Origin: Pseudomonadota bacterium
Lineage (GTDB): Bacteria > Pseudomonadota > Gammaproteobacteria > Burkholderiales > Thiobacillaceae
DNA: 48,749 bases
Assembly: GCA_030684775.1 (NCBI GenBank)
Contig: JAUXXW010000052.1
Coordinates: 1 to 48,749, forward strand
Direction of reading: 5' to 3'
Made by a program: the position numbers and the translations under genes. The notes under the pieces were generated by a model that worked only from the letters and a program-made list of their open reading frames with translations, ran no database searches and had not been told where the DNA came from. Below, in pieces: positions 17,425-43,000 of the stretch. Numbering within the stretch: the first letter of the stretch is position 1; every line of letters begins with the position of its first letter.

Positions 17425-19428
17425 ATGATCCGACTACAGAAACTCACCCTCATACGCGGCACCAAGCCTTTGCTGGAAGCTGCCGATCTCACTCTCAATC
17501 CCGGCGAAAAAGTCGGCCTCATCGGCGCCAATGGTTCCGGCAAATCCAGTCTGTTCGCCTTGCTGCGGGGCGAACTGCAACCCGACGGTGGCGATGTCGA
17601 CTTTCCCGCCGCCTGGCGCATCGCCCATGTGGCGCAGGAAACCCCGGCCCTCGACCGCACCGCGCTGGACTACGCCGTCGACGGCGATACCACGCTGCGC
17701 CGCCTGGAAAGCCAACTGGCCGAGGCCGAAGCCGCCCATGACGGGCACCGCATCGGCGAACTGCATACCGCACTGGCCGACGCCGACGCTTACACCGTGC
17801 GCTCGCGCGGCGAGACCCTGCTCACCGGCCTCGGCTTCAGCCACGCCCAGATGAGCCAGTCGGTCGCCAGTTTTTCCGGCGGCTGGCGCATGCGGCTGAA
17901 CCTGGCGCAGGCGCTGATGTGTCCTTCCGACCTGTTATTGCTCGACGAGCCCACCAACCACCTCGACCTCGACGCCATCCTCTGGCTGGAAGACTGGCTG
18001 AAACGCTATCCCGGCACGCTGATCATCATTTCCCACGACCGCGATTTTCTCGACGGCGTGGTCAACGTCATCGCCCACCTCGCCGACAAGAAGATCAAGC
18101 GCTACGGCGGCAACTACTCCACCTTCGAAAAGCAACGCTCCCTCGACCTCGCCCTCGGCCAGGCCACGTTCGAGAAGCAATCGCGCGAACGCGCCCACCT
18201 GCAATCCTTCATCGACCGCTTCAAGGCCAAGGCCAGCAAGGCCAAACAGGCGCAATCGCGGATGAAAATGCTGGCGAAGATGGAGGATCTCGCGCCCATC
18301 CACGCCGCCGCTTCCTTCAGCTTCGAGTTCCGCGAACCGGAGCGGGCGCCGAATCCGCTGCTGACGCTGGAAGACGTGGTGGCGGGGTATCGCCCGGAGG
18401 AACCCGTAGCCCGGATGCAGCGTGAGCGGAATCCGGGGCCTTTGGACGCGCCATCCCCGGATTCCGCTCGCGCTGCATCCGGGCTACCTGATGGCGTGGT
18501 CATACTAAAAAACCTCAATCTCACCCTTCAGGCCGGCCAACGCATCGGCCTGCTTGGCGTCAACGGCGCCGGTAAATCGACCCTGATCAAGACCCTGGTC
18601 GGCGATCTGCCGCCGCTCTCCGGCGAAGCCAGCCAGGGCAAGGGGCTGTCGATCGGCTACTTCGCCCAGCATCAGGTGGAAATGCTGCGCCACGACCAGA
18701 GCCCGCTCTGGCACCTGGCCAAGATCGCGCCCCAGGTGCGGGAACAGGAACTGCGCAACTTCCTCGGCGGTTTCAACTTCGTCGGCGAAATGGCCTCGGC
18801 CTGCATCGCCCCTTTCTCCGGTGGCGAAAAAGCGCGCCTGGCCCTGGCCCTGATCGTCTGGCAGCGCCCCAACCTGTTGTTGCTCGACGAGCCCACCAAC
18901 CACCTCGACCTGGAAACCCGTGAAGCGCTCACCGTGGCGCTGGCCCAGTTCGAAGGCACCCTGGTGCTGGTCTCGCACGACCGCCATCTGCTGCGCGCCA
19001 CCACCGAGGAATTCCTGATCGTCGCCAACGGGGGGCTGGAACCCTTCGATGGCGACCTCGACGACTACCGCGACTGGTTGTTCAAAACCAAGCTGGGCAA
19101 GCCGGTGGCGCAGGAATCCGCTGCGGCCACACCGGCGGTGGACCGCAAGGAACAGAAACGCCAGGAGGCCGAAGCGAGGCAGCGCCTGTCCACGCAAAAA
19201 AAACCCGTCGAAACCCGGATCAAACGCCTGGAAGAACAGATGGAGCGGCGCAACGCGCGCCGCGCGGAACTGGAAACCCTGCTTACCGACCCCGCCCTCT
19301 ACGGCGAGGCCCGCAAGGAAGACCTCAAAGCCCGTCTGTTCGAGCAAGCCACCCTGGTCAAGGAACTGGAACAACTCGAAGTCGAATGGCTGGAACAGCA
19401 GGAAGTGCTGGAAGGCATGGGTGCCTGA
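17425..19428 (+). CDS. yheS: ABC-F family ATPase, YheS type
   Basis: 667 residues. Two ABC domains are joined by the ABC-F arm/linker and there are no membrane segments. The first Walker A GANGSGKS is at about 34-41, signature FSGGWRMRLNLAQAL, Walker B LLLLDEPTNHLDLDA. The second Walker A GVNGAGKS is at about 379-386 and signature FSGGEKARLAL. The second LLLLDEPTNHLDL follows. The wording throughout (PAWRIAHVAQETPAL, KAKQAQSRMKML) matches E. coli YheS, a ribosome-associated ABC-F protein. A charged coiled-coil tail ends the protein. A REP element of 82 bases lies inside the frame (residues about 328-355) and adds a stretch YheS lacks, just before the second ABC domain. The frame remains open. 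Confidence 0.93.
   Translation: MIRLQKLTLIRGTKPLLEAADLTLNPGEKVGLIGANGSGKSSLFALLRGELQPDGGDVDFPAAWRIAHVAQETPALDRTALDYAVDGDTTLRRLESQLAEAEAAHDGHRIGELHTALADADAYTVRSRGETLLTGLGFSHAQMSQSVASFSGGWRMRLNLAQALMCPSDLLLLDEPTNHLDLDAILWLEDWLKRYPGTLIIISHDRDFLDGVVNVIAHLADKKIKRYGGNYSTFEKQRSLDLALGQATFEKQSRERAHLQSFIDRFKAKASKAKQAQSRMKMLAKMEDLAPIHAAASFSFEFREPERAPNPLLTLEDVVAGYRPEEPVARMQRERNPGPLDAPSPDSARAASGLPDGVVILKNLNLTLQAGQRIGLLGVNGAGKSTLIKTLVGDLPPLSGEASQGKGLSIGYFAQHQVEMLRHDQSPLWHLAKIAPQVREQELRNFLGGFNFVGEMASACIAPFSGGEKARLALALIVWQRPNLLLLDEPTNHLDLETREALTVALAQFEGTLVLVSHDRHLLRATTEEFLIVANGGLEPFDGDLDDYRDWLFKTKLGKPVAQESAAATPAVDRKEQKRQEAEARQRLSTQKKPVETRIKRLEEQMERRNARRAELETLLTDPALYGEARKEDLKARLFEQATLVKELEQLEVEWLEQQEVLEGMGA
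18406..18487. repeat. GTAG-CCCGGAT palindromic element inside yheS
   Basis: GTAGCCCGGATGCAGC at the left and GCTGCATCCGGGCTAC at the right, with inner ATCCGGGG/CCCCGGAT arms, form the same two-hairpin element seen at 36769-36849. Here it is embedded in frame in coding sequence and is translated as about 28 residues (PVARMQRERN...ASGLPD). Confidence 0.93.
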
Positions 19429-19439
19429 GGAAGACCGAA

Positions 19440-19512
19440 GTAGCTTGGGCAAAGCGCAGCGTACCCAACATGGCGGCGGTTCGTTGGGCACGCTGCGCTT
19501 TGCCCAACCTAC
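19440..19512. repeat. GTAG-TTGGGC palindromic element, copy 4
   Basis: An inverted pair (one arm begins GTAGCTTGGGC, slightly diverged) 11 bases after the yheS stop and 57 bases before the cupin gene. Possibly transcript-terminating or mRNA-stabilising. Confidence 0.88.
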
Positions 19513-19569
19513 GTCACTCATCGCCTTCCTGCGCGAGGTATTCGCCACCACCGCCAAGGGAACCCCGCC

Positions 19570-19938
19570 ATGACCATCATCCACAGCCGACTCGCCGAAG
19601 TGCCGGCTTATGTCACGAAAGACGGCTCCAGCATCCGCGAACTGATGCACCCCGCCGTGCATGGCAATGCCCGGCAAAGCCTGGCCGAAGCCAGCGTTCC
19701 GCCCGGTGGCGCCACGCTGTTGCACCGGCATCACGAAAGCGAAGAGTTGTATTTCATCGTATCCGGCACCGGCCGCATGACCCTGGGCGATGAAGAATTC
19801 GCCATCGCCCCCGGCGACACCCTCCTCATTCCGCCCGGTACCCCGCATTGCCTGCGCAACGACGGCGGCGAAACCTTGCGTCTGCTCTGCGCCTGCGCCC
19901 CGGCCTATCGCCATGAAGACACGGAAACGCTGGAGTGA
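19570..19938 (+). CDS. Cupin-2 domain protein
   Basis: 122 residues forming one cupin barrel. Motif 1 HRHHESEELYFIVSGTGRM carries the metal-binding His/His/Glu set. Motif 2 is PGDTLLIPPGTPHCLRN with the fourth ligand His. The N-terminus reads SSIRELMHPAVHGNARQSLAEASVPPGG. Such stand-alone cupins bind a divalent metal and range from isomerases to sensors; the substrate cannot be deduced. AAGGGAA precedes the ATG. It is probably a separate unit from rnfA, which has its own candidate promoter. Confidence 0.85.
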   Translation: MTIIHSRLAEVPAYVTKDGSSIRELMHPAVHGNARQSLAEASVPPGGATLLHRHHESEELYFIVSGTGRMTLGDEEFAIAPGDTLLIPPGTPHCLRNDGGETLRLLCACAPAYRHEDTETLE

Positions 19939-19981
19939 TGGGATGAAAAACCGGCGCGTGGTGGCTGCATGACTGGCAGGG

Positions 19982-20011
19982 TTGTTGCCAGCCTTGGCGC
20001 GGGGCGATAAT
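19982..20011 (+). promoter_or_regulatory. Candidate promoter of the rnf operon
   Basis: TTGTTG, an 18-base spacer and GATAAT lie just before rnfA. Transcription would begin near 20018, leaving a leader of about 19 bases. No Shine-Dalgarno sequence is visible before the rnfA ATG. Confidence 0.4.
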
Positions 20012-20036
20012 CGCGCCCGCCGCACGCCCCGCCTAA

Positions 20037-20612
20037 ATGGAAAACTACCTGCTCATCCTCATCGCCACGGTGTTCGTGAACAACATCGTGATGTCCAAGA
20101 TTTTGGGCCTGTGCCCATTCATGGGCGTGTCGCGCAAGCTGGAAACAGCCATCGGCATGGGCGCGGCCACTACCTTCGTGCTGACCCTGGCTTCCGGCAC
20201 CAGTTATCTGATCGACACCTATCTGCTCGGCCACGATCTCGCTTATCTGCGCACCTTGTCGTTCATCGTGGTGATCGCCGGCATCGTCGGCTTCACCGAG
20301 ATGTTCATCAAGAAGACCTCGCCGGTGCTGTTCCGCGTGCTCGGCATCTACCTGCCGCTCATTACCACCAACTGCGCGGTGCTGGGCATTCCGCTGCTGA
20401 ACGTGATGGAACAGCACAACTTCATGGAATCCCTGTTTTTCGGCATGGGCGGCGCGCTCGGCTTCACCCTGGTGCTGGTGCTGTTCGCCGCCATGCGCGA
20501 GCGACTGGAAGCGGCGGAGGTGCCGAAGCCGTTCAAGGGCACTTCCATCGCCATGATTACGGCCGGCCTGATGAGTCTGGCGTTCATGGGGTTCGCGGGG
20601 TTAATCAAGTGA
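20037..20612 (+). CDS. rnfA: Rnf electron transport complex subunit A
   Basis: 191 residues, six membrane spans, near the size of E. coli RnfA/RsxA (193). Conserved stretches are [43 protein letters not shown] and [16 protein letters not shown]. RnfA and RnfE are paralogous membrane subunits that hold a [2Fe-2S] cluster between them through the conserved LGLCP and TTNC cysteines, both present here. First gene of rnfABCDGE, an ion-coupled ferredoxin/NADH oxidoreductase of the inner membrane. Confidence 0.96.
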
Positions 20613-20638
20613 CTCTGCGTTGCCGCCCGCAATGCGGA

Positions 20639-20701
20639 GTCATCCCGGCGAAGGCCGGTATCCAGCGCGTATCTCTGGATGCCGGCTTGCGCCGGCATGA
20701 C
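20639..20701. repeat. GTCATCCCGG-type palindromic element in rnfA-rnfB junction
   Basis: GTCATCCCGGCGAAGGCCGG at the left and its imperfect inverse CCGGCTTGCGCCGGCATGAC at the right form a 63-base inverted repeat with ATCCAG/CTGGAT inner arms. It ends 5 bases before the rnfB ATG, leaving no room for a normal ribosome site. A similar GTCATTCCCGCG sequence type is widespread in proteobacterial genomes. Confidence 0.85.
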
Positions 20702-20706
20702 ACCTG

Positions 20707-21255
20707 ATGCTGTCCGCGATCCTGGTGATGGCGGGCATCGGCCTGGTGCTGGGCGCCATCCTCGGCTGGGCGTCGATCAAATTCCGGGTGGAAGACGACC
20801 CCCTGGTGGAAAAGATCGACGCCGTCCTGCCGCAGACTCAGTGCGGCCAGTGCGGCTTTCCCGGCTGCAAACCCTATGCGGAAGCCATCGCCCGTGGCGA
20901 GGCGGATATCAACAAGTGCCCACCGGGCGGCGAGGAAGGCGTCAAACATTTGGCGGAACTGCTCGGCGTCGAACCCAAGCCGCTGGGCGAGGGCCTGGAG
21001 CCGAAACCGAAAGCGGTGGCGGTGATCGATGAAAACACCTGCATCGGCTGCACCCTGTGTATCCAGGCCTGTCCGGTGGATGCCATCGTCGGCGCCGCCA
21101 AGCAAATGCATGTCATCGTCGCCAGCCAGTGCACCGGCTGCGAACTCTGTTTGCCCCCTTGCCCGGTCGACTGCATCCACATGGAAGTCATCAAGGAAGA
21201 CGTGGCCACCTGGAAGTGGCGTTACCCGATCCACACGATGAAGCAAGTGGAATGA
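20707..21255 (+). CDS. rnfB: Rnf complex Fe-S subunit B
   Basis: 182 residues. An N-terminal membrane anchor (3-23) is followed by an FeS domain with Cys46, Cys49, Cys54 and Cys71 ([11 protein letters not shown]...NKC). Two ferredoxin-type [4Fe-4S] motifs follow, [12 protein letters not shown] and [12 protein letters not shown]. It passes electrons between the soluble donor/acceptor and the membrane subunits. [10 protein letters not shown] is the proper start by comparison with known RnfB, even though the preceding repeat leaves no Shine-Dalgarno sequence. The stop overlaps the rnfC ATG by 4 bases (ATGA). Confidence 0.95.
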
Positions 21256-22937
21256 CCCGCAAACTCTTCACCTTCAACGGCGGCGTCCACCCCGAGGGCC
21301 ACAAGGACGTATCCAACGCCACGCCAATCGCCAACCTGCCGCTGTTGCCGCGCTATGTGGTGCCGCTGCGGCAGCACATCGGCACACCCGCGCGGGCGCT
21401 GGTACAGGTGGGCGACACGGTGCTGCGCGGGCAGATGATCGGCGCGGCGGAAGGGTATGTCTCCACCGCCGTGCACGCGCCCACTTCCGGCCGCGTCGTC
21501 GCGCTGGAACCGCATGAGGTACCGCATCCATCCGGGTTGGCCGATATGTGCGTGGTGATCGAGTCGGATGGACTCGATCAAGCGGTCGAATTCCAGCCCC
21601 TGGACTGGCGCAATCTCGATCCTTCCGCGCTGCGCAACCGCATTCGCGACCTGGGCCTGGCCGGCCTCGGCGGCGCGGTGTTCCCCAGTTTCATCAAACT
21701 GAATCCGGAAGGCGGCGGCATCGACACCCTGATACTCAACGGCGCCGAGTGCGAGCCCTGGATTACCTGCGACGACCGTTTGATGCGCGAGCGCGCGGCC
21801 GAAATTCTGCAAGGGGTGGCGGTCATGCGCCACATGTTGGGCGCCCGCGAGGTGCTGATCGGCATCGAGGACAACAAGCCGGAAGCCATTGCCGCCATGC
21901 GGGCGGCCGCCGCCGGCGAAGCGGAAGTGATCGCCGAGGTTGTGTCCATTCGCACCCTGTACCCGACCGGCGGCGGCAAGCAACTCACCTATATCCTCAC
22001 CGGCCGCGAGACCCCCACCGGCGGCCGCTCCACCGATGTCGGCGCGCAGGTATTCAACATCGGCACCGCCTATGCCCTTTACCGCGCAGTCGCCCTGGGC
22101 GAACCCATGCTTTCCCGGGTGGTCACCGTCACCGGCCACGTCGCCGCGCCCGGCAATTACGAAGCGCGCCTGGGCACGCCGGTAGCGGACCTGTTGCAGG
22201 CGGCGGGCGGCGCCCTGCCCGGCTCGGTCGGCAAACTGGTGGGTGGCCCGATGATGGGGTTCGAGTTGGAAAACGACGCGGAAGACAACGCCGCGCCTCT
22301 GACCAAGGCGGTGAACTGCATCATCGTCAAACATCCCGACCTGTTCCCGGCCAAGCCCTCCGCCCTGCCCTGCATCCGCTGCGGCGCCTGCGCGCGCGCC
22401 TGCCCGGCCGATCTGCAACCGTTCGAGATGTACTGGTTCTCGCGCGCCAAAGACTTCGGCAAGGCGCAGAGCTACGACCTGTTCGACTGCATCGAATGCG
22501 GCTGCTGTTCCTTCGTCTGCCCCAGCCACATTCCACTGGTGGATTTCTTCCGCTTCGCCAAGAGCGAAATCTGGGAACGCGAGCGCCACAAGCACGACGC
22601 CGATCAGGCACGCACGCGGCACGAGTTCAAGGATTTCCGCCTGGAGCGGGAAAAGAAGGAGAAAGCGGAAAAACTCGCCGCCAAGGTCGCCGAAAACAAG
22701 GCCAGGGATGCCGCCACGGCGGCGGCCATCGCGGGTAACGCGGAAAGCGCCGACCCGGAAGCCGAACGCAAGAAAGCCATTCTGCAAGCCGCCCTGGATC
22801 GCGCGAAAAAAGCCAAGGAAAGCATCGCGCCACAGAACACCGATAACCTGTCCCCCGCTGTGGCAAAGCAGATCGAGGAGATCGAGGCGCGCCGCACCCA
22901 GGCGGACACTCGTCCGGAACACGAGGAAGGCAAATGA
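21252..22937 (+). CDS. rnfC: Rnf complex subunit C (NADH/flavin and Fe-S)
   Basis: 561 residues. The N-terminal domain ([12 protein letters not shown]...APTSGRVV) leads into the NADH/FMN-binding core with [19 protein letters not shown] and [28 protein letters not shown]. Two [4Fe-4S] motifs follow, [17 protein letters not shown] and [18 protein letters not shown]. The last 110 residues are a charged Ala/Lys/Glu-rich tail, shorter than the repeat tail of E. coli RnfC (740 residues in total). The ATG at 21252 overlaps rnfB. Confidence 0.96.
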
Positions 22938-23017
22938 CCGTGGCATCGCGGCGCCCCCTCAACCCGCACTCCCACGAAGTGCATGTTCCTTTGTTAAGTG
23001 GTGATGCGGCTGGAGCG

Positions 23018-23118
23018 GTGGTTCCCCCCTTTCTCAAAGGGGGGATTTCTGAGTCGGCTGCTCAGGCAAACGTCGCCAAATCCCCCTCATTCCCCCTTTG
23101 GGAAAGGGGGAGGCCACC
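23018..23118. repeat. C5T3 hairpin element, copy 2, in rnfC-rnfD junction
   Basis: About 100 bases bounded by GTGGTTCC and GGCCACC with CCCCCTTT/AAAGGGGG hairpins at both ends. Homologous over its length to 2912-3018 in opposite orientation. It separates rnfC (ends 22937) from rnfD (starts 23166). The flanking bases 22938-23017 and 23119-23165 contain no gene. Confidence 0.88.
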
Positions 23119-23165
23119 CCGGCCAGCGCCCCAGCAACAGGCGGTAACACACAGATGACCCACGC

Positions 23166-24203
23166 ATGAACGGCTCCCCCTACCTCCTGCGCGAGAACAA
23201 CTCCGTCACCGTGGTGATGCTGAAGGTGCTCGCCGCGCTGATTCCCGGCGTGATCGCCCATGTCTGGTTCTTCGGCCCCGGCATCGTGGTCAGCTTGCTG
23301 CTGTGCGGTGCCTTCGCCATCGGCTTCGAGACGCTTGTCCTGCTGATGCGCGGCATGCCTCTGAAACCCTTCCTGACCGACGGCTCGGTGCTGGTCACCG
23401 CCTGTCTGCTGGCCCTGGCCCTGCCCACCCTGGCACCCTGGTGGCTCTATCTGGCCGGCGTATTTTTCGCCGTGGTGGTGGCCAAACACCTCTACGGCGG
23501 CCTGGGACAGAACCTGTTCAACCCGGCGATGGTGGGTTATGCCGTGCTGATCGTCAGTTTCCCGGTCACCATGACGCAATGGGCCGCCCCCTACGGCGTC
23601 GCCCACGCCATCCCTGATCTGTGGGAAGCCTTCGATCTGGTGTTTGCCGGCGCCGGCGCCATCAGCCCGGATGCCTACACTTCCGCCACCGTGCTGGACA
23701 CCTGGAAGACCCAGGTACGTCTGGGCAAGGACGCCGCCGACATCCTCGGGCAACCGATCTTCGGCTGGGCCGGCGGACGCGGCCAGGAAATCGTCGCCTC
23801 GATGTACCTGGCCGGTGGGCTGCTGCTGGTCGCCAACCGCCTCACCACCTGGCACATCCCCTTCGCCTTCCTGGCCGGCATCGCCGCCACAGCCGGCGCG
23901 CTGCATCTGCTCGACCCGTCGCGCCATGCCGACCCGCTGTTCCACCTACTTTCCGGCGGCGCCATGCTGGGCGCATTCTTCATCGCCACCGACCCGGTCA
24001 CCGCCGCCAGCACGCCACTGGGCAAATTGATCTACGCCAGCCTGGCCGGCTTCCTCACCGTCATCATCCGCACCTACGGCGGTTATCCCGATGGGGTCGC
24101 CTTCGCCATCCTGCTGATGAATGTGGCCGTGCCGTTCATCGACGCCTATACGCAACCCCGCGTGTTCGGCCACAAACACGGCGGCAAGCGGGGGCAGGCA
24201 TGA
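23166..24203 (+). CDS. rnfD: Rnf complex membrane flavoprotein D
   Basis: 345 residues with about nine to ten membrane spans. The flavin attachment motif is SAT at 173-175 (AYTSATVLDTW); Thr175 should carry covalent FMN. Other family marks are KHLYGGLGQNLFNPAMVGYA, FIATDPVTAASTPLG and IIRTYGGYPDGVAFAILLMN. The sequence is preceded by a palindromic element and has only a weak ribosome site, unlike the overlapping rnfB-rnfC junction. Confidence 0.95.
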   Translation: MNGSPYLLRENNSVTVVMLKVLAALIPGVIAHVWFFGPGIVVSLLLCGAFAIGFETLVLLMRGMPLKPFLTDGSVLVTACLLALALPTLAPWWLYLAGVFFAVVVAKHLYGGLGQNLFNPAMVGYAVLIVSFPVTMTQWAAPYGVAHAIPDLWEAFDLVFAGAGAISPDAYTSATVLDTWKTQVRLGKDAADILGQPIFGWAGGRGQEIVASMYLAGGLLLVANRLTTWHIPFAFLAGIAATAGALHLLDPSRHADPLFHLLSGGAMLGAFFIATDPVTAASTPLGKLIYASLAGFLTVIIRTYGGYPDGVAFAILLMNVAVPFIDAYTQPRVFGHKHGGKRGQA

Positions 24204-24213
24204 GGACTTGGCC

Positions 24214-24843
24214 ATGACCCCGGCGATCCGCGAAACGCTCTCCACCGCGTTGACCCTGCTGGTGTTTTCCGTGGTCGGCGCCGGCCTGCTGTCCGGGGCC
24301 TACACCCTCACCCGCCCGGCCATCGAAGCCAGCGAACTGGCGGAAAAACTGGCCCTGATTGCGCAGACCCTGCCGCCCGGCAGCTTCGACAACGACCTGG
24401 TGGGCGACGCCCGCCCCCTGCCGGTCGACGCTTTGCTCGGCCTGAAGCGGCCGGGGCTGTCCTACGTCGCGCGGAAAGCGGGCAACACGACTGCGGTGGT
24501 GCTGGAAGCCGCCGCCCCCGACGGCTATGCCGGCGAAATCCGCCTGCTGGTCGGCATCCACGCCGATGGCCGCATCGCCGGCGTGCGCGTAACCGCGCAC
24601 CGGGAAACGCCCGGCCTGGGCGACACCATCGAAATCGCCAAGAACCGCTGGATCACCCAGTTCGACGGCCACAGCCTGGGCGACACCCCGGACAAGGATT
24701 GGCAAGTGCGCAAGGATGGCGGTCGCTTCGACTATATGGCCGGCGCCACCATCACCCCGCGCGCCGTGGTCAAGGCCACGCACAAGGCGCTGCAATACTT
24801 CGCGGCGCACCGAGACGAACTGCTGCAAGGAACGCAGCCATGA
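24214..24843 (+). CDS. rnfG: Rnf complex flavoprotein G
   Basis: 209 residues from ATG 24214. One N-terminal span (about 10-31) is followed by a periplasmic FMN-binding domain. AGAT at 176-179 (YMAGATITPRAV) is the flavinylation motif with Thr179 as acceptor. HRETPGLGDTIEIAKNRWITQF is the conserved partner segment. An ApbE-type flavin transferase, needed for attachment, is not in the window. Starts 10 bases after rnfD. Confidence 0.94.
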   Translation: MTPAIRETLSTALTLLVFSVVGAGLLSGAYTLTRPAIEASELAEKLALIAQTLPPGSFDNDLVGDARPLPVDALLGLKRPGLSYVARKAGNTTAVVLEAAAPDGYAGEIRLLVGIHADGRIAGVRVTAHRETPGLGDTIEIAKNRWITQFDGHSLGDTPDKDWQVRKDGGRFDYMAGATITPRAVVKATHKALQYFAAHRDELLQGTQP

Positions 24844-24851
24844 ACGAAACC

Positions 24852-24954
24852 GTAGGATGTGGTTACCGAAGGGTAGGGGCTTCATCAGAGGGTGTGAACC
24901 GCATCAACCACGCCACCAAGGACGATGCGGTTCGCTTCGCTCACCACATCCTAC
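24852..24954. repeat. GTAG-GATGYG palindromic element, copy 2, in rnfG-rnfE junction
   Basis: Begins GTAGGATGTGGTTACCGAAG and ends CACCACATCCTAC, the two-hairpin GTAG arrangement of 4696-4814. An ATG overlapping the rnfG stop (24840) opens a 42-codon frame that runs through the element and stops shortly after the rnfE ATG. This may be the original rnfE start left stranded by the insertion. Confidence 0.88.
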
Positions 24955-24964
24955 TGGAGACACC

Positions 24965-25609: not shown

Positions 25610-25616
25610 GTTTCCA

Positions 25617-25668
25617 CACACCCCCAACACAAAGGGCCGCAACTGCGGCCCTTTGTGTTGGGGGTGTG
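25617..25668. terminator. Bidirectional terminator between rnfE and cysS
   Basis: A perfect 25-bp stem (25617-25641 with 25644-25668) and a two-base loop between convergent genes. The core is CAAAGGGCCGCA/TGCGGCCCTTTG. The inner A3/T3 run is inside the stem and there is no long T tract, so it is partly cruciform-like, but its position fits termination in both directions. Confidence 0.85.
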
Positions 25669-25691: not shown

Positions 25692-27116
25692 TTACTCCCG
25701 TCGCCAGGTCGTCCCCTGTGCCCCGTCTTCCAGCACGATGCCGGCGGCTTTGAGTTCGTCGCGGATGGCGTCGGAGCGTTTGAAATCTTTGCCTTTGCGG
25801 GCGGCGAGGCGTTCGTCGATCAGGGCCTGGATGCGTTCGGGAGGGTAGTCGCCAGCGTCACCGGGGCCGGCCTGCATGAAGGCTTCCGGGTCGCGCTGCA
25901 ACAGGCCGAGGACGCCGCCCAGGGCTTTCAGCAGCCCGGCACGGGTGGGGTCGCGGCTCTTGTTCACTTCGGCAGCGAGGTCGAAGAGAACAGCCATGGC
26001 TTCCGGGGTGTTGAAGTCGTCGTCCATCGCGGCGCGGAAACGCGCGGGCAGCGGGTCGTTCCAGTCGATTGCCTCACCAAGCCCCCTCACCCCCGGCCCC
26101 TCTCCCGCCCGCGGGAGAGGGGAGACGGGCACTACGCCGCGCAGCGCGGTGTAGAGCCGGGACAACGCGGCGCGGGCGTCGTCGAGGTGATGGTCCGAGT
26201 AGTTGAGCGGGCTGCGGTAGTGGGCGCGCAGGATGAAGAAGCGCACCACTTCGGCGTCATATTTTTCCAGCACTTCGCGGATGGTGAAGAAGTTGCCCAG
26301 GCTCTTGGACATCTTTTCGTCGTCGACGCGGACGAAACCGTTGTGCAGCCAGTAGTTGACGAATTTGCAGTCATGCGCGCCCTCGGACTGGGCGATTTCG
26401 TTTTCGTGGTGTGGAAACTGCAAATCCTGGCCGCCGCCGTGGATGTCGAAATGCGCGCCGAGGAGGTCGCTGCCCATGACCGAGCATTCGATATGCCAGC
26501 CGGGCCGTCCTTCGCCCCAGGGCGAGGGCCAGGCGGGCTCATTCGGCTTGGCGGCTTTCCACAACACGAAGTCCATTGGATCGCGCTTGTACGGGTCGAT
26601 CTCGACCCGCTCACCGGCGCGCAGGTCTTCCAGTGTCTTGCCGGAGAGCTGGCCGTAAGTCGGGAAGCTGTTCACCGCGTAATAGACATCGCCGTTACTT
26701 GCGGCATAGGCATGATCGCGGTCGATCAGGGTCTGAATCATGGTCAGCATCTTGCCGACATATTCCGTCGCGCGCGGCTCGTGGTCGGGCGGCAGCACGC
26801 TCAAGCGCCGCTCGTCTTCGTGCATGGCATCGATGAAACGTTGGGTGAGCGCGGTGAAGGCTTCGCCGTTATCGAAGGCGCGCTTGATGATCTTGTCGTC
26901 GATGTCGGTGACGTTGCGCACATAGTTCACGTCATAGCCGGAAGCGCGCAGCCAGCGGGTGATCATGTCGAACACCACCAGCACGCGAGCATGGCCGAGG
27001 TGGCAGTAGTCGTACACGGTCATGCCGCAGACATACATGCTCACCTGGCCGGGGGTGATGGGGACGAAGACTTCTTTCTTGCGGGTGAGGGTGTTGTGTA
27101 GGGTTAGTTGGGTCAT
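25692..27116 (-). CDS. cysS: Cysteinyl-tRNA synthetase
   Basis: 474 residues (E. coli 461). The class I HIGH box appears as HLGH in [10 protein letters not shown], and KMSKS as [11 protein letters not shown]. The zinc site is formed by Cys30 in [10 protein letters not shown], the Cys of GWHIECSVM and the HHENE motif. A repeat-derived peptide [13 protein letters not shown] sits at about 333-345 between the catalytic core and the C-terminal helical domain, in frame and absent from typical CysRS. Convergent with rnfE. Confidence 0.96.
26082..26123. repeat. CCTCTCCC-type palindromic element inside cysS
   Basis: CCCCTCTCCCGC and GCGGGAGAGGGG arms flanked by CCCTCACCCCCGG form a hairpin within cysS and encode [13 protein letters not shown] on the minus strand. 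A related element lies in gloB at 37989-38024. Confidence 0.8.
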
Positions 27117-34645: not shown

Positions 34646-34818
34646 CGCCGTCCGCACCTCAATACCGGGTATCGCGAAGTGTCGTTTCCAGGTTGAACCA
34701 GGTGTTCGACGCAAGCATGTTCGAAGTCCATTCACCCTGAGTTTGCCTCGGGGGGAATGTGGGCTTCGGCGGCATCAGGCCGAACGCATTTCGCCCGGTT
34801 GCCGCCGTGATGGCCGGT

Positions 34819-35298: not shown

Positions 35299-35360
35299 AT
35301 GTCTTTCGGTAGGTTGAACGAAGGTGCTGGATTATCCTGGAAACCTCAGTTGACCGCTCC

Positions 35361-35603
35361 TTAGCCCTCGTGAGGCCGCATGGATGCTGGCGTTATCGCC
35401 TCCGATGGCGCCCACCAATCGGGTGATGCCGCTACGCGGTCGATCACGCTGATGGCGTTTGGGGCATCCTGGATGGGTTGCGCCAGACGGCTGGCGGTCA
35501 GCACCACGGGTACTTCACCGATGAAATCGGCTTCACTCAGCTCCTTTGCCGCGCAGGGAACCGCCACGAGAACGGCAAATAGTGGAAATAGCGGCTTCAC
35601 CAT
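35361..35603 (-). pseudogene. TonB-dependent receptor, 5' remnant
   Basis: 80 codons beginning ATGGTGAAG, overlapping the dnaQ stop by 7 bases. The protein has a signal peptide (MVKPLFPLFAVLVAVPCAA) and then the start of a plug domain, ADFIGEVPVVLTASRLAQPI followed by QDAPNAISVIDR, the classic opening of BtuB/FepA-like receptors. After VIDR the similarity stops abruptly; 24 unrelated codons follow to a TAA. A full receptor is 600-750 residues, so this is a deletion remnant. It was probably co-transcribed with rnhA-dnaQ. Confidence 0.8.
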
Positions 35604-36274
35604 GCCGGCGCTTCCCCGCACTCCTTGACCATACCCTCCAGATAAGCCGCATGCGACGCGCATTCCGCAACATCCGCGCGCAACACCTTGAGCACGCCGC
35701 GCCGCACCAGGGTGGCGGCCTCGGTTTGAGCCGGGGTGGCGATGTCGATGCCCAGGGTCTCCTGGCCACGGGTCATCGCCAAATACACCTCGGCGAGCAA
35801 TTGCGCGTCGAGCAGGGCGCCGTGGAAGGCGCGCCCGGAGTTGTCCACTTCGTAGCGCCGGCACAGCGCGTCCAGATTGTTCTTCTGGCCGGGGTGCAAG
35901 CCCTTGGCCATCTTCAGGGTATCCAGCACCGTGCAGTAACGCTTGACCGGCCCGTCTTTCAGTTTCGCCAGTTCGGCATTGAGAAAACCCACGTCGAACG
36001 GTGCGTTGTGGATGACCAGTTCGGCATCGCGCACAAATTCCAGGAACTCCGGCGCGATGTCGGCGAAACGCGGCTTGTCGGCCAGAAATTCGTTGGTCAG
36101 GCCATGCACCGCCATCGCGCCCGCGTCGATCTCGCGTTGCGGGTTGAGGTAGACATGGTAGGTAGCGCCGGTAGGCTGCCGATTGACGATCTCCAGAGCG
36201 CCGATCTCGATCACTCGATGCCCCTGCGCCGGGTCCAGGCCCGTGGTTTCGGTATCCAGCACGATCTGGCGCAT
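35597..36274 (-). CDS. dnaQ: DNA polymerase III epsilon subunit (3'-5' proofreading exonuclease)
   Basis: 225 residues (E. coli 243). DEDDh exonuclease: Asp7/Glu9 in VLDTETTGLD, Asp in NAPFDVGFLN, and His/Asp in FHGALLDAQLLAEVYL. The C-terminal 40 residues differ from the E. coli clamp-binding tail. The start codon shares one base with the rnhA stop (TGATG), so the two are coupled, while its stop overlaps the start of a TonB-receptor remnant. Confidence 0.95.
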   Translation of the reverse strand: MRQIVLDTETTGLDPAQGHRVIEIGALEIVNRQPTGATYHVYLNPQREIDAGAMAVHGLTNEFLADKPRFADIAPEFLEFVRDAELVIHNAPFDVGFLNAELAKLKDGPVKRYCTVLDTLKMAKGLHPGQKNNLDALCRRYEVDNSGRAFHGALLDAQLLAEVYLAMTRGQETLGIDIATPAQTEAATLVRRGVLKVLRADVAECASHAAYLEGMVKECGEAPAW

Positions 36275-36729
36275 CAGTTCTTCCCCTGCAAAGCGATCTG
36301 CACGCCTTCGTTGGCCAGCTCGTCGGCGCGTTCATTTTCCGGGTGGCCGGCATGGCCCTTGACCCAGAGCCATTCGATGCGGTGGCGCGCCGCCTGCTCG
36401 GACAACTCGCGCCATAAATCCTGGTTCTTCACCGCGCTGCCCCCCGCAGTCTTCCAGCCGCGCCGAATCCAGTTCGGCATCCACTCCGAGATGCCCTGCT
36501 GCACATATTTCGAGTCGGTATGCACGCGCACCTGGCAATGCCGGTTAAGCGTCTTCAAGCCCTCGATCACCGCTTGCAACTCCATGCGGTTGTTGGTGGT
36601 GTCGCGTGCGCCGCCACACAAGGTCTTTTCCACCTCGCCGAAACGTAGCAACACGCCCCAACCACCAACGCCGGGATTGCCCTTGCAGGCGCCGTCGCTA
36701 TAAAGATCCACAATTTTTTCTTCAGCCAT
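36274..36729 (-). CDS. rnhA: Ribonuclease HI
   Basis: 151 residues (E. coli 155). Catalytic acidic residues appear in [28 protein letters not shown], and [12 protein letters not shown], with the His/Asp end region [17 protein letters not shown]. It degrades the RNA of RNA-DNA hybrids. Its ATG lies in a 48-base direct repeat that recurs 141 bases upstream, on the far side of a GTAG element. Confidence 0.96.
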
Positions 36730-36764
36730 TTCTATTCAATGAGTTACGGGTTGAGCTGGCCCAG
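36717..36764. repeat. 48-base direct duplication flanking a GTAG element (partner 36858-36905)
   Basis: Bases 36717-36764 recur at 36858-36905 with three mismatches, on both sides of the palindromic element 36769-36849. Each copy holds an ATGGCTGAAGAA (minus strand), the rnhA start, and the end of the upstream methyltransferase frame. The duplication leaves rnhA and the methyltransferase each with an intact end. Confidence 0.9.
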
Positions 36765-36768
36765 ATTT

Positions 36769-36849
36769 GTAGCCCGGATGCAGCGCAGCGGAATCCGGGG
36801 AATCGCACCACGTAATGCCCCGGATTCCGCTGCGCTGCATCCGGGCTAC
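36769..36849. repeat. GTAG-CCCGGAT palindromic element, copy 2
   Basis: GTAGCCCGGATGCAGCGC at the left and its inverse ending GCATCCGGGCTAC at the right, with inner AATCCGGGG/CCCCGGATT arms. Same family as the copy inside yheS. It lies between rnhA and the methyltransferase gene. Confidence 0.95.
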
Positions 36850-36862
36850 CAGTTTGGTTTCT

Positions 36863-37567
36863 TCAGCCATCTTTGTTCAATGAGTTACGGGTTGAGCTGG
36901 CCCAGGTCGGGCGCGGTAGCCAGTGCCCTTCCCACTTGGGTGCGATCAGGCGCATGCCATGCACACGCTTCACGGCATGAATCTGATAAACACCGCCGCC
37001 CAGCGCCCACCAGCGGTCTCCGGCGGCTTCCAGAAACGCGAAGCGTTTGATCCAGGCGGCATGTTCAAAAGGAGGGACGTAGCAGGCCATGCGCCCGCCG
37101 GCCAACTCGAAGCCGAGCAGAGCCAGCCAATCCTTGAGGCGGGTGAGGTGAATGAAACGCCCACGCCAGGGCCAATCGGTCGCATGGCGATTGAAGCTGC
37201 GCCGCAAACCCCACAGGCTCAGCGGGTTGAAGCCGGTAATCAGCAAACGGCCTTCCGGGCGCAACACCCGCTCTGCCTCGCGCAGCACCTGGTGCGGGTG
37301 GACGGAGAATTCCAGGACATGCGGCAACGCCAGCAGATCCAGGCTCTGGCTGGCGATCGGCAATTGCTCCGGAAGACAGCGCAGTTCGCCTTCTTCCAAC
37401 CCGCCGCAAAAGCGATGCGGCATACGATTGGCGCGCAGGCATTCCACACCGCAGTGGCCGACCTGCATGGCGTTGAAGCCGAACAGATCGACGCTGACGG
37501 CGTCGAACCAGGCCTGTTCCCGCGCCAGCACGTATTGACCCAACTCGCTATCGAACCATGTCCGCAC
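36863..37567 (-). CDS. SAM-dependent methyltransferase, YafS-like
   Basis: 234 residues from GTG 37567, chosen because AGGA lies about 10 bases upstream and the N-terminus then matches YafS length (240); longer frames would run into gloB. It is a class I methyltransferase with a weak motif I region (GFNAMQVGHCG) and LPIASQSLDLLALPHVLEFSVHPHQVLREAERVLRPEGRLLITGFNPLSLWGLRR, typical of Methyltransf_11. The substrate is unknown. Position between gloB and rnhA is that of E. coli yafS. Its 3' end lies in the 48-base duplication, and its stop overlaps a relic copy of the rnhA start. Confidence 0.85.
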   Translation of the reverse strand: MRTWFDSELGQYVLAREQAWFDAVSVDLFGFNAMQVGHCGVECLRANRMPHRFCGGLEEGELRCLPEQLPIASQSLDLLALPHVLEFSVHPHQVLREAERVLRPEGRLLITGFNPLSLWGLRRSFNRHATDWPWRGRFIHLTRLKDWLALLGFELAGGRMACYVPPFEHAAWIKRFAFLEAAGDRWWALGGGVYQIHAVKRVHGMRLIAPKWEGHWLPRPTWASSTRNSLNKDG

Positions 37568-37606
37568 TGATTGACGTCCTGGAAAACCTGACGGGACAAT
37601 GCCCGC

Positions 37607-38497
37607 ATGAAAGTGACAGCCATCCCCGCGTTCCGGGACAACTATGTGTGGGCCATCCACGACGACCATTCGGCAATCCTGGTCGACCCCGGAGAAGCCG
37701 CGCCGATTTTAGCTTGGCTTGAGCGATGGCAACGTCATCCTGTCGCCATCCTGGTGACGCATCACCATGCCGATCATGTCGGCGGCATCCGCGAAATCAC
37801 CGCGCGGTATGCCATCCCCGTCTACGGCCCGGGCAATGAAACCATTCCCGGCAGGACACATCCGCTGCTGGGCGGGGAAACCGTCCAGATAAATGAACTC
37901 GGCCTCGCCTTCCAGGTGCTCGCCACGCCCGGCCACACCCTGGGCCATCTCTGTTACTTTCAAAGTCGCGCCAGCGACTCTCGACGCTCCCCTCTCCCTC
38001 TGGGTGAGGGGTTGGGGTTGAGGGAACCGTTCATGGCCGAGCACGAAACGTTCATGAACGGGGGCGGCCAGCCGGCTATGAACGGTTACGGCCACGGCGC
38101 CCTGTTCTGCGGCGACACCCTGTTTTCCTGCGGTTGCGGCCGCCTGTTCGAAGGCACGCCGGCGCAAATGCATGCCTCGCTCAGCCGCATCAAGGCGCTA
38201 CCGGCGGAGACCCTGGTCTACTGCGCGCACGAGTACACGCTGGAAAACCTTGATTTCGCCCTGGCGGTGGAACCGAACAATCCCGCCCTGCAAACCCGTC
38301 TGGCGGAAGTGCGTGGCCTGCGCGGGCAGGGAATACCCAGTCTGCCGGTCAGTTTGAGCACGGAAATCGCCACCAACCCCTTCCTGCGTTTTGATGAACC
38401 GAGCGTGATTGTTGCGGCAGCGCAACATGCCGAACACCCCGTCCAACCCGGCCTGGAGGCCTTCACCACGGTGCGAGCCTGGCGAGATGGCTACTGA
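37607..38497 (+). CDS. gloB: Hydroxyacylglutathione hydrolase (glyoxalase II)
   Basis: 296 residues, about 40 longer than usual (250-258). Metallo-beta-lactamase fold with THHHADH at 51-57, PGHTLGH at 108-114 and CGDTLFSCGCGRLFEG at 168-182. The C-terminal HAGH-type half has YCAHEYTLENLDFA and PSLPVSLSTEIATNPFLR. It hydrolyses S-lactoylglutathione to lactate and glutathione. The extra residues, about 120-161, include SPLPLGEGLGLRE from a palindromic repeat and lie on a loop between two metal-ligand motifs. Divergent from the methyltransferase with only 39 bases between them. Confidence 0.95.
   Translation: MKVTAIPAFRDNYVWAIHDDHSAILVDPGEAAPILAWLERWQRHPVAILVTHHHADHVGGIREITARYAIPVYGPGNETIPGRTHPLLGGETVQINELGLAFQVLATPGHTLGHLCYFQSRASDSRRSPLPLGEGLGLREPFMAEHETFMNGGGQPAMNGYGHGALFCGDTLFSCGCGRLFEGTPAQMHASLSRIKALPAETLVYCAHEYTLENLDFALAVEPNNPALQTRLAEVRGLRGQGIPSLPVSLSTEIATNPFLRFDEPSVIVAAAQHAEHPVQPGLEAFTTVRAWRDGY
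37989..38024. repeat. CCTCTCCC-type element inside gloB
   Basis: CCCCTCTCCCTCTGGGTGAG followed by GGGTTGGGGTTGAGGG resembles the cysS insert (SPLPxGEGxGxR peptide in both) and forms an imperfect hairpin. Read in frame by gloB. Confidence 0.75.
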
Positions 38498-38545
38498 GCG
38501 CATTCCCCCGTCGCATCCCTTTTTCAATCAGAACAGCCACTTGCA

Positions 38546-38574
38546 TTGAGCCCCCCGGCCCTGGCCGGTAAAAT
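38546..38574 (+). promoter_or_regulatory. Sigma-70 promoter of mltD
   Basis: TTGAGC, exactly 17 bases, then TAAAAT. The start would be near 38581, leaving a leader of about 73 bases before the mltD ATG. The rest of 38498-38653 holds no gene. Confidence 0.6.
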
Positions 38575-38653
38575 GCGGTCTCGTTCAAGGTTCTGCGACT
38601 CGTGCCGATATAGGCCTGGTGCCTTGTCGCCCGACCCTTAACCGCCCCACCCC

Positions 38654-39961
38654 ATGCCCCCGAACCGACGTTTACTCCCCCTCATTTTCCTTTTCCTCGG
38701 CCTGGCCGCGTCCGTGGCGCCGGCACTTGCCGAGACTGGAAATCAAACCCCGGCCCTGAAGGTCAGCTATGCCTTGTCCGCCCCTCCCGTGGAGCAACAG
38801 GGCGTTCTCTGGCGACGTATCCGGTCCGGCTTCAGCCTGGGCGAATCCAACCCCGCCCTCACCCGCGTGCACGAAGAATGGTTCCGCAAGCACCCAAGCT
38901 ACCTCGAACGAGGCGCCGAGCGCAGCCGCCTGTATCTCTATTTCATCGTCGAGGAAGTGGAAAAGCGCGGCATACCGATGGAGATCGCCCTGCTGCCCAT
39001 GATCGAGTCGGCCTATAACCCGCTGGCGTTGTCGCCGATGAAAGCCTCCGGCCTCTGGCAGTTCATCCCCTCCACCGGCAAGGTCTACGGCCTCAAACAA
39101 AATGCCTGGTATGACGGCCGCCGCGACGTGCTCACCGCCACCCGCGCCGCGCTCGATCATCTGGAAGACCTACACGCCAAATTCGGCGACTGGGAATTGG
39201 CGCTGGCCGCCTACAACTGCGGCGAAGGCTGCGTGGCGCGCGCGCAGTCGCGTCGGAAAGGCAAGTCCACCGACTACGCCAGCCTGAAACTCCCCACGGA
39301 AACCCGCCACTACGTTCCCAAACTGATCGCCGTGCGCAACATCGTGCTCGATCCGCAACGTTTCGACATCGCTCTGCAAGAAGTGGCCAACGAACCTTAT
39401 TTCATGCAGGTCAAGCTGAGCCAGCCGATGGAAGCAAAACAGGCCGCGCGCCTGGCGGACATGAACCTGGACGAATTTCTTTCCCTCAACCCCGGCTTTC
39501 AGCGCCGCGTCATCCACACCGACACACGCGGCGTCATGCTGCTGCCCACCGAGCGTGTGGAGACCTTCCAGTTCAACCTGCACCGCCAAGGCGTGGACAA
39601 GCTCAGCCTGCGCTCCTACCAGGCGAAACGCGGAGAAAGCGCCAGCAAGATCGCCGACCAATTCGGCGTGACGCCGGACTGGCTGAAGGTACACAACCCG
39701 GTCAAGTTCCATAAGGGCAAGGTTACCCAGGCACAGACCCTCCTGGTTCCCTCCAAAGTGAAAGTGGCCGGCACCCCGAAAATCCAATCCGCAGCCAAGG
39801 CAAAACGTCCGAGCATGCGCACCCACACCGTGCGCCGTGGCGACACCCTGGATCAGGTCGCCAAGCTATACAGCGTGCGGGTTACCGACATTCGCCGCTG
39901 GAATGAGGCGGCCGAGCCTCTCCAGCCCGGCGCCACCCTGGAAATTCCACTTTCCGGCTGA
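38654..39961 (+). CDS. mltD: Membrane-bound lytic murein transglycosylase D
   Basis: 435 residues. Signal peptide (about 1-26; no obvious lipobox Cys, unlike the E. coli lipoprotein). A Slt catalytic domain (about 105-225) follows with catalytic Glu118 in LLPMIESAYNPLALSPMKASGLWQF and LALAAYNCGEG. LysM modules lie near 320-365 (SYQAKRGESASKIADQFGV) and 392-434 (THTVRRGDTLDQVAKLYSV). It cleaves peptidoglycan strands to 1,6-anhydromuropeptides. It neighbours gloB as in E. coli. Convergent with the YhaN-like gene. Confidence 0.94.
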   Translation: MPPNRRLLPLIFLFLGLAASVAPALAETGNQTPALKVSYALSAPPVEQQGVLWRRIRSGFSLGESNPALTRVHEEWFRKHPSYLERGAERSRLYLYFIVEEVEKRGIPMEIALLPMIESAYNPLALSPMKASGLWQFIPSTGKVYGLKQNAWYDGRRDVLTATRAALDHLEDLHAKFGDWELALAAYNCGEGCVARAQSRRKGKSTDYASLKLPTETRHYVPKLIAVRNIVLDPQRFDIALQEVANEPYFMQVKLSQPMEAKQAARLADMNLDEFLSLNPGFQRRVIHTDTRGVMLLPTERVETFQFNLHRQGVDKLSLRSYQAKRGESASKIADQFGVTPDWLKVHNPVKFHKGKVTQAQTLLVPSKVKVAGTPKIQSAAKAKRPSMRTHTVRRGDTLDQVAKLYSVRVTDIRRWNEAAEPLQPGATLEIPLSG

Positions 39962-40002
39962 CCGCCGAATACCTCGCCGGCGGGCGATGCCTCGGACCGT
40001 GG

Positions 40003-43000
40003 CTACGCGAAACTTCCCTTGATTTCATGCAGGCACACGGCATCCGCTGGCAGGGTTTCGCGAGCCAGGTCGATCAGATGCCGATGGTGGGTGAACAGCA
40101 ACACCTGCGTGGTTCCGGCGAGATCGCGCAGCAGGGGCAGGATGGCGCGGGTGCGGTCGTCGTCGAAGGTAATCAGGAGATCGTCGAGGATGAGCGGCAT
40201 GGGCTCGTGGTTGGTCTGGTGCAATTCGATGGCGGCCAGGCGTAGCGCGAGAAAGAGCTGATCACGGGTGCCTTCGCTCATGCCCTCCACCGGCACGGCC
40301 ACCCCCTCTTTCATGCCGACCAGAACGGGGATGTCGTCTTCCGCATAGGTGGTGCCGAGGCTGTTGAAACTGCCGCCGGTCATCCGCTGGAACAAGGCCC
40401 CCGCCTTGACCAGCAGCGGCCCCTGATTGCGCGCGCGGAAGACCTCTATCTGGGCCTTCAGGAACTGGATGGCGAGACGCAGGCGCAGGTAACGGGCGGC
40501 GTCCCGACGCACCGTGGCGACGGCGTGGCGGGCGGTCTGCAAGTATTCGGCGGCTTCGGCGCCGCTGGTTTCCAGATGCGTTTTTGCATCTTCCGAGCGC
40601 GTCAGATTCTGGATGGCCTGTTCGCGCCGCGCTTCCCGATCCCGGATGCGGTCGGCCAGGTCTTCCCGTTCCGTCGCCAGGGTTTCACCGTCTTCTCCAC
40701 ACACACGCTCGATGAAGCTGTCCAGTGTCTCGCCGCGCGCCTGCACATGCAGAGCGGCGCGCAGACTGTCCTGGTCGGCGAGCAGCCGCCGGCGAATGGC
40801 AAGGTTGGCCAGCAGGCTTTGCAGGGCATTCATATCCGCCACCCCGGCCTGAACCAGCAGTGCCGTCAGGTCGTGGCGGGCCATTTCCGCGTCCTGTTCC
40901 ACGCGGGGTAGCTCGGCCGTCAGTTGCTCCAGGTCTTCTTCGACCAGGCTGCGTCGGGTTTGCAGGGCGCGGGCTTGGGAAAGTGTGTCTCCCAGGGCAT
41001 TGACCTGGATTTCGGCGCCGGCGTCTGTGGAAATCCCCCCTTCCCCCCCTTTGGCAAAGGGGGGGACTGTTACCGCCACCACGAGCGCCCGAGCCTGGCG
41101 CTCATAGGCCGCCAGCGCATTGTGCCGTTCCGTCAGCGCGGTACTCAGACGGGTCCAGGCATCGTATCGCGTGACCAGTTCGAGGCGGGCGTCGAGCAGG
41201 TGCAGGGCGGTTTCCGGACGATGTTCGCCTCCGTGCCGGTTATCGCGCCAGCGGGTTTGTGCCTGAACCAGCGTGCTTTCGATCTGTGGCCGTTGCCGCG
41301 CCAAAACTTCGGTTTCGCGCTGCAATTCAGATAAATCGGCCTCCAGGGCGCGGCGCTCGCCCAACACCTGGTCGGCGGCGCGCAGGCGGCGTTCCGCCAG
41401 CTCACGCAGTTCCGGCAAGCCGCCGTCGACGCCGTCCAGCAAGGGGCGCAGCAGGGCTTCGGCGGCGATGATGTCCCGCCGGGCGGCCTGAACTTGGTCG
41501 CGCAGGTCGCGCCAGGCTTCGTGGCGGCCACGGAATTCCAGCCATTGTTCACGCCATTCCAGCATTTCCGCGGGGCTGGAGGCGGCCAGGCCGCTGGCTT
41601 GCCAGAGCGCGTTCCAGTCGCGCAGCCAGGTCTGGCGGGCGTGGTCCAGGCGCAGCCTTTCTTCCTGTTGTTCCTGGTGGGTGGCTTCGCCTTCCCGGAT
41701 TTGCCAACGCAGTTCTTCCGCCTGGGCGACGGCATCCGCCTCTTCGCGCAAGCGGTCGGCCAGGGCATCGGCTTGCCGCACGGCGACCGGGTAGGACTCG
41801 GCCAGGGGGGCATCATCCCAGGCTTGTTCCGGGGCGCCTTCGCGCCAGCAGGCCAGCACCTGTCGCCAGCCATCGTCACGATGCGCGCGTGCCTGGGCAA
41901 GATCGTCGTGTGTAGGCAGGATGCCGCGTGCCTCCAAGCGTTCCAGCTTGGTCTTCATCTCGCGCAGGCTTTTCGCCGTTTTCCGCACCGCTTCGTCCAG
42001 TTGCCGCGCGCGCGTCGCCAGATCGGCGGCGGCGGCGTCGAACTCGCGCAGCCGCGAAGCGGCGGGCAACGCCAGGGCATAGGCCGCGGCCGGGTCGGCG
42101 GGCGCGCCGACCAACAATGGCTGTTGGCTCGCCAGACGCCGGGACAGGTTTTCCAGCGCGGCCTCCTTGCCGGCCAGGTCGAACGCGGCGGCGGGCGCGG
42201 CGACCGCCTGAGCCTCGCGTAACGCGAAGGCATCGGTTTGTGGCAGCAAGGCCAGACGGGCGCGCGTCTTTTCGAGTTCGGCGGCAAGTCGCGCGGCCGC
42301 GAGCCGCTGTTCCTCTCCCGCCCGTTCGGCGTCCACCAGGGCGGTGGCGGCCTCGCGCAGCGCCAGTTCTTCGGCGAGGGGAATACGCAAATCGGCGATG
42401 TCGGCGGGTTCCGCGTGCAATCCAAGGCGCAACAGACCGGCACGCAAGCCGGCTTCCACTTGTTCAGCCTCCGCCCTGTCCACCGAAAGCGCGTCGCGGC
42501 CCTGCCTGTAGACGGCAAGGCCCTCCGCCAGGGCAACGATTTCGGCCGCGTGGGCAAGCACCTCCGCGCGCGGCGTGAGGGTATCGCGACGGGTGGTCAG
42601 ATCGCCGATGCGCTGTTTCAGGCTCTCAAGCGTCCGTTCGGTCTGAACGAGCCTGTTCTGGGCGGCTTCCACCTCCTTCGCGAAGTCGTCGGACAGGGCC
42701 GGCAGCCGCGGCAGTTCACCGAGGCGCGCTTCCGTTTCGCGCAACCGGCCCAGCGTGGGCAGCGCGTCCAGGCAACGGCCCAGCCAATCCTGGCGGCCAC
42801 GCAGGGTGTGCAGTTCGGCATCCAGCTCGTGCTTTGCGCGCCGCGCGTCTTCGAGCTCGCGCAGAGTGATTTCCCAGGTTTCCGGCTTGACCCGGGTCTG
42901 CTTGCTGTTGCGCAGGGCCTCGTCGTGGATGTCCAGCGCGGGGCGGATGCTGGCGTTTTTCCAGGCTTTGCCATCGAACAGCTTGCGTGCTTCTTCGTTC

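Follow-up and report, generated by a model that had tools for sequence, protein, structure and literature searches.

In-frame palindromic repeats in conserved genes of a betaproteobacterium related to Thiobacillus, and a YheS loop occupied by different repeat families

The window, by which we mean the whole 48,749-nt stretch of DNA analysed, belongs to a genome of 3.85 Mb in 227 contigs, here called G000. Four of its genes, encoding the ABC-F ATPase YheS, cysteinyl-tRNA synthetase (CysRS), hydroxyacylglutathione hydrolase (GloB) and a YhaN-like ATPase, each carry an in-frame, repeat-derived segment without counterpart in close relatives (Table 1). An earlier note on this DNA had placed repeats of three types at 18406-18487 in YheS, 26082-26123 in CysRS, in GloB and at 41031-41066 in the YhaN-like protein, with the frame open in each host. 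The repeats were found at these places with the frames open, and they are indeed of three types, namely type A in YheS, type C in CysRS and GloB, and type D in the YhaN-like gene. The extent of one of them had to be corrected: the GloB segment was described as 36 nt or 12 residues (37989-38024), whereas the insert spans about 129 nt or 43 residues. Alignment furthermore found that the segments are not common to distant orthologues.

Table 1 Genes and repeats in the window discussed in the text
Feature	Position	Strand	Remarks
Type D copy	2980..3013		
Type B GTAG REPIN	9453..9534		between ORFs
Type B GTAG REPIN	17288..17363		upstream part of an ORF with uncertain start
yheS	17425..19428	+	ABC-F ATPase, 667 aa; ABC-F NCBIfam model above cut-off; PRK10636 best, below cut-off; best PDB match 9vvi (YheS)
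Type A GTAG-tagged REPIN in yheS	18406..18487	+	inverted pair, GTAG plus imperfect palindrome; in frame; peptide VARMQRERNPGPLDAPSPDSARAASGL
Type B GTAG REPIN	19437..19518		directly past yheS stop
cysS	25692..27116	-	cysteinyl-tRNA synthetase, 474 aa; TIGR00435 569 bits, cut-off 340
Type C repeat in cysS	26078..26126	-	
Second type A REPIN copy	36769..36849		between ORFs
gloB	37607..38497	+	hydroxyacylglutathione hydrolase, 296 aa; TIGR03413 306 bits, cut-off 201
129-nt insert in gloB	37960..38088	+	type C element (about 37963-38027) and ~60-nt tail
YhaN-like ATPase gene	40003..43494	-	1163 aa; name from the earlier note
Type D repeat in YhaN-like gene	41031..41066	-	peptide VPPFAKGGEGGIS
Type B GTAG REPIN	48551..48632		

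At least five families of small palindromic repeats are present in G000: two GTAG-tagged REPIN types (A and B), a CGTC-type family, and types C and D. In types A and B, GTAG stands at one end of an imperfect palindrome (18406 GTAGCCCGG...; GTAGGTTGGGC...), and the units form inverted pairs. A BLAST search of G000 with the YheS repeat gave 35 matches, both strands of one place often being counted separately. Type C consists of the core CCCTCACCCC N1-4 CCCTCTCCC plus a hairpin; the flank composition of 90 units revealed neither a GTAG nor a CGTC tag. Type D is defined by AAATCCCCCC..CCCCCCTTTG plus a hairpin, with the tail AAATCCCCCCTNN ahead of the palindrome, and its other end is seen in a few copies only. 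The families are no product of chance: G000 holds 263 matches to type D (at most 3 mismatches) and 51 to the exact type C core, with 0 in the controls; an earlier 22-base type C pattern allowing up to 3 mismatches was noisy, with 7 matches compared to 4 in the control. The exact type C core was found in 18 of the 23 genomes of the genus, where all 23 together gave 1 control match, and in 35 of the 143 genomes of the class sample, with up to 65 copies; many of the genomes compared are fragmented assemblies.

The window contains further repeated DNA. Between 36717 and 36905 the two copies of a 48-bp direct repeat, 94% identical to each other, bracket the second type A REPIN in the manner of an unusually long flanking duplication. 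At 15474-15554, three 27-bp units with 96-100% identity follow one another in tandem. Within 48278-48740 a type B REPIN is enclosed by two 90-bp copies, 98% alike, of a further palindromic repeat (CGTAGGGCGGAAAAGC). A CGTC-like repeat region at 20606-20706 faces a gap at the aligned place in a near relative (L031), pointing to gain or loss there. An Rfam search of the window at gathering thresholds gave no match.

The 82-bp REPIN in yheS is a complete inverted pair of GTAG-tagged palindromes with 33-nt arms that are 97% complementary. Its RNA is calculated to fold with -76.7 kcal/mol (z -13.8), and 0 of 200 shuffled sequences folded as well. The insert is located in the loop near the AGY tyrosine, ahead of the second ABC domain; this tyrosine is presumably the adenine-stacking A-loop residue. 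The loop between AGY and the next strand has roughly 0-15 aa in most of 110 aligned loci, some of which are the same sequence counted both as genome and under a contig name; E. coli YheS lacks the segment. Depending on the lineage, this one loop holds a repeat of the GTAG, the CGTC or the type C kind: a GTAG REPIN is present in G000 and its near relative G010, type C in G019, G022, G014, G020 and G011, and CGTC-tagged repeats, with both the tag and a short palindrome, in G021 and G029. Long loops were also seen in G003 (L009) and, at greater distance, in L011 and L013. A tree calculated from 33 of the 110 alignment rows, with the loop removed, requires at least seven changes of loop state with G003 left out of the count; good support was obtained for 14 of its 30 inner branches, and the two outgroup rows did not come together. 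In this tree the sister of G019, which has type C, is G016, whose loop is empty; loss or recombination thus also occurs. Thiobacillus, Hydrogenophilales and further betaproteobacterial records are among the nearest named YheS loci.

Likeness in the middle of the spacer suggests that the inserts of G019 and G022 share common descent. The shared spacer ends were dropped as proof of a single type C insertion because the same ends recur in other type C pairs, and decay of the YheS hairpin between G000 and G010 was likewise dropped, as one base pair was gained and one lost. Between these two genomes the 27 codons of the insert show 2 amino-acid changes and no synonymous one, compared with 98 synonymous and 17 amino-acid changes in the 631 codons of the rest of yheS, a contrast that rests on few events. 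In the AlphaFold model of YheS (mean pLDDT 82, pTM 0.44) residues 326-356 have pLDDT below 50 and lie between the strands 313-322 and 358-368. In the YheS of a Thiobacillus record, a type A unit is found near the C-terminal linker (L033:11595-11621), in the same frame (PVARM) as in the window insert.

In CysRS, the type C insert follows RLYTALRG; the part of the E. coli protein (1li5) that aligns at this point is shorter and matches poorly. Among 30 aligned loci the insert is absent in G010, over which the net gain is ~15 aa, and in G019 and G005 this linker is occupied by different segments, in part repeat-like. The GloB insert was found in G000 only among 30 GloB loci, being absent in G010, and its ~60-nt tail had no match elsewhere in the loci compared. 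Residues 127-161 of the AlphaFold GloB model (mean pLDDT 87) are below 50 and lie between the strands 115-119 and 165-169. Both inserts, in YheS and in GloB, are thus predicted as disordered segments between two strands. The earlier note had assigned the peptides to linkers, loops or a coiled coil, and this placement agrees with the models for YheS and GloB; for CysRS, it is the alignment that points to a linker. The YhaN-like protein gave no NCBIfam match at 1e-10 and was matched in only 12 of 49 genomes. Its insert is common to G000 and G010, and G019 has a longer repeat-like segment there (15 loci). From G000 to G010 the insert shows 1 synonymous and 2 amino-acid changes in 13 codons and the rest of the gene 101 and 123 in 1139 codons, so that insert and gene show no contrast. 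As isolated RNAs, the CysRS and YhaN segments fold unexceptionally (38 and 32 of 200 shuffles as good), thus copy number and not fold energy is the mark of these repeats; for the GloB segment 2 of 200 shuffles were as good.

How far repeats have entered coding genes was estimated in 426 kb of G000, made up of the window and 20 stretches; the latter come from contigs already known to bear repeats, so that the sample is non-random and counts may run high. A mismatch scan gave 109 repeat clusters, 14 of them in coding ORFs by script and 15 with DapF, which is cut by a locus edge. The reversed control produced matches for type C only (10 compared to 16 real ones), and because the type C census with up to 3 mismatches is this noisy, we relied on the exact core. 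Twelve in-gene clusters are fairly solid: those in YheS, CysRS, GloB, YhaN and DapF, three on L243, of which one near the ORF start (L243:9613) is less sure, and those in GshB (L244), in a weakly OppA-like protein (L247), in a PAS-domain histidine kinase (L249) and in HemF (L252). The in-gene call at L248:5264 is weak (3 mismatches). Two type B clusters are doubtful as genic, the one at 19440-19512 since it directly follows the yheS stop with an ORF on the other strand, and L235:2260-2332 since it lies near the end of a 188-aa ORF. Outside the window 8 of these fairly solid clusters were counted in 378 kb, which scales to very roughly 80 in a whole genome. Counted from stop to stop, ORFs cover up to ~82% of the sample, yet few clusters fall within them; genes are thus strongly avoided. 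By the loose calls, including the doubtful ones, 8 of 13 type C clusters are genic vs 2 of 52 of type B (Fisher p 1e-5); by the exact core, the type C share is 28 of 90. For type D, 3 of 30 exact loci lie within genes and keep the frame (a DppD-DppF-like fusion, NifJ and NirB), 5 of the 30 lying within ~500 bases of a contig end, where they can hardly be judged.

Across the genus, 28 of 90 distinct exact type C units are in frame inside coding ORFs, 27 by script and one at L306. As the genic test requires an open frame, frame-breaking copies were sought separately among 17 further units with both flanks coding on one strand; the remaining 46 have one coding flank (32), none (11) or flanks on opposite strands (3). 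One of the 17, at L306, lies in an intact ORF of the Pfam TsaD family, 15 lie between ORFs with different Pfam matches, and at L333 one flanking side has no Pfam match, so that 0 of the 17 candidates proved to be one gene cut in two. Of the in-frame ORFs found by script, 26 of 27 were scanned with NCBIfam; 4 had no match at 1e-10, Pfam named three of these (L263 stayed unnamed), and some other ORFs have partial or weak matches only. The hosts include ValRS, AcnA, PolA, MetH, dihydrolipoyl dehydrogenase, AroA, KdsB, GcvPA, pyruvate:ferredoxin oxidoreductase (in G019 and G022, and in G000 by L209), Cas10/Csm1, HsdM, a UbiH-type hydroxylase and DabA, some being orthologues hit in two genomes. In several proteins the HMM match exceeds the profile positions, by 55 residues in RsmE, 65 in ValRS, 46 in PolA, 32 in GshB and 22 in HemF. 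The DabA family match at L307:2-3499 exceeds its profile positions by ~270 residues and encloses a type C unit; perhaps several inserts are involved. A gene of the TsaD family, which we take to be TsaB, has a type C segment in G000 (L232:1256-1909) and in G022 (L306:1574-2533), apparently at the same place. In G125, a distant genome of the same class (GC 53% in the sample), 1 of 23 type C units is genic, and weakly so; landing in genes is thus not a property of the repeat alone.

The inserts are derived insertions with an open frame and repeat identity, as empty sites exist in close relatives for all four window genes, and in YheS the insertion is recurrent. The explanation that we consider best, and hold with high confidence, is insertion of repeats filtered by frame, stops and loop tolerance, followed by translation and drift. 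Small palindromic families would spread as mobile or copied elements, and copies within genes would survive only if they are free of stops, preserve the frame and are located in turns or linkers. The surviving inserts are probably translated, as extra disordered segments, would be close to neutral and would then drift. With few tolerant loops per protein, the same loop can be hit again by unrelated repeats in other lineages, as in YheS and perhaps in the CysRS linker; in NifJ and in the TsaB-like protein, the segments may each go back to a single old insertion. A RAYT transposase is a plausible mover of the GTAG types. G000 has 6 matches to Y1_Tnp genes of the RAYT family, 5 of them over the cut-off, and the flanks of these six loci contain a type B unit in L229, a type B unit with 1 mismatch in L231 and no type A unit. 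No clear target-site duplication was seen in the pairs of filled and empty sites. A protein at L234:1354-1944, below the Pfam cut-off, has the look of a RAYT transposase, with what we take to be RAYT motifs; a GTAGGATGTGG-type repeat, also present in the window at 24852-24954, may adjoin its gene.

Several other explanations were weighed. That the segments are ancestral loops or GC-rich low complexity mimicking repeats is scarcely credible: C-rich coding sequence does yield chance matches to loose type C patterns (control 10 vs 16 and 4 vs 7), but the exact core gave 51 matches in G000 with none in the control and a single control match in 23 genomes, while ancestral loops are refuted by the alignments of the four window genes, with empty sites in sisters. 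Assembly errors joining repeats into genes appear highly improbable. The division of G000 into 227 contigs would allow such errors, and both the GloB insert and this form of the CysRS insert occur in G000 only (30 loci each); against this, different assemblies have diverged inserts at the same place of YheS (G000 and G010, G019 and G022) and likewise of NifJ (G000, G019 and G022), and the frames stay open. Very unlikely, too, is that the inserts escape translation, being cut from the RNA or hopped by the ribosome at the hairpin. The extreme stability of the YheS hairpin and the many conserved enzymes among the hosts would fit such removal, which would need no open frame; yet 28 intragenic type C units are in frame (27 of them picked by open frame), none of the 17 candidates proved frame-breaking, and the other three repeats of the window fold ordinarily or modestly.

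A use for the inserts that is kept by selection, either as linkers or as mRNA hairpins slowing the ribosome at domain borders, is in our view unlikely. Inserts do lie between domains in YheS, the DppD-DppF-like fusion and NifJ, where at L309 the PorA-like match ends at 399, the PorC-like match starts at 471 and the unit occupies 404-412; the same YheS loop recurs, and type C shows a weak preference among its open frames (Monte Carlo p ~0.04). Selection for use is opposed by the patchy presence with empty sister alleles, by the lack of a synonymous excess in the YheS insert (0 vs 2) and by the interchangeable repeat families at the YheS site. We give a similarly low chance to the idea that certain loops are true landing sites, to which unrelated palindromes are steered or in which they are kept due to a useful mRNA hairpin during translation; if it were true, the genus would use interchangeable repeats as renewable linkers and ribosome pauses. 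Insertion with subsequent filtering and drift remains our preferred reading.

A literature search with five type C and type D strings found no paper, most subscription journals being outside the search, and we know of no sequence likeness between the present repeats and Correia or ERIC elements. In-frame REPs in proteins, outside Rickettsia too, are already known as a kind. In the parts available to us, Di Nocera et al. 2013 (PMC3733652) describe numerous bacterial genes that contain GTAG or CGTC REPs in frame, suggest linkers or loops, list DNA polymerase I and tRNA synthetases among conserved hosts, and note that recB of two Xanthomonas species has different REPs at nearly the same site. The repeats described here are likewise palindromic, in many cases paired as inverted dimers, and lie in frame in conserved genes; unlike the REPs presented there, type C has neither tag, and the end of type D is seen in part. 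Compared with what that source gives in these parts, we add one loop with three kinds of repeats within one bacterial family, with empty sister alleles and a tree. With GTAG-tagged palindromes paired in inverted orientation and Y1_Tnp genes in the genome, types A and B are like the REPINs of the REPIN/RAYT study, which by the portion consulted covered extragenic space (PMC3116915), whereas one REPIN here is inside yheS.

The earlier note had likened the inserts to Rickettsia palindromic elements (RPE). The accessible sections of PMC2229807 describe RPE as Rickettsia-specific elements of 105-146 bp, inserted in frame in conserved proteins in 19 reading frames, with a translated, active guanylate kinase among them. 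The likeness holds for in-frame inserts in conserved proteins that are absent in orthologues, as seen for the window genes. Here, families that look unrelated, a GTAG REPIN and two others, act in a betaproteobacterium related to Thiobacillus and not in a Rickettsia; the comparison may therefore be taken as analogy, not as membership. The same sections mention the 107-bp Correia and the ERIC elements, small mobile repeats whose open frames are fused to ORFs; as described there, this in-frame fusion of small repeats is similar to ours.

In conclusion, what looks new are two apparently untagged families, the scale within the genus and the repeatedly hit YheS loop. As the filled and empty sister alleles show, short palindromic repeats can add segments to conserved enzymes in considerable number in bacteria other than Rickettsia too, and one loop can receive insertions repeatedly. 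Such inserts would amount to a natural list of the places at which universal proteins tolerate insertions, and they would allow a test of whether REP-like repeats in proteins are merely tolerated or contribute.
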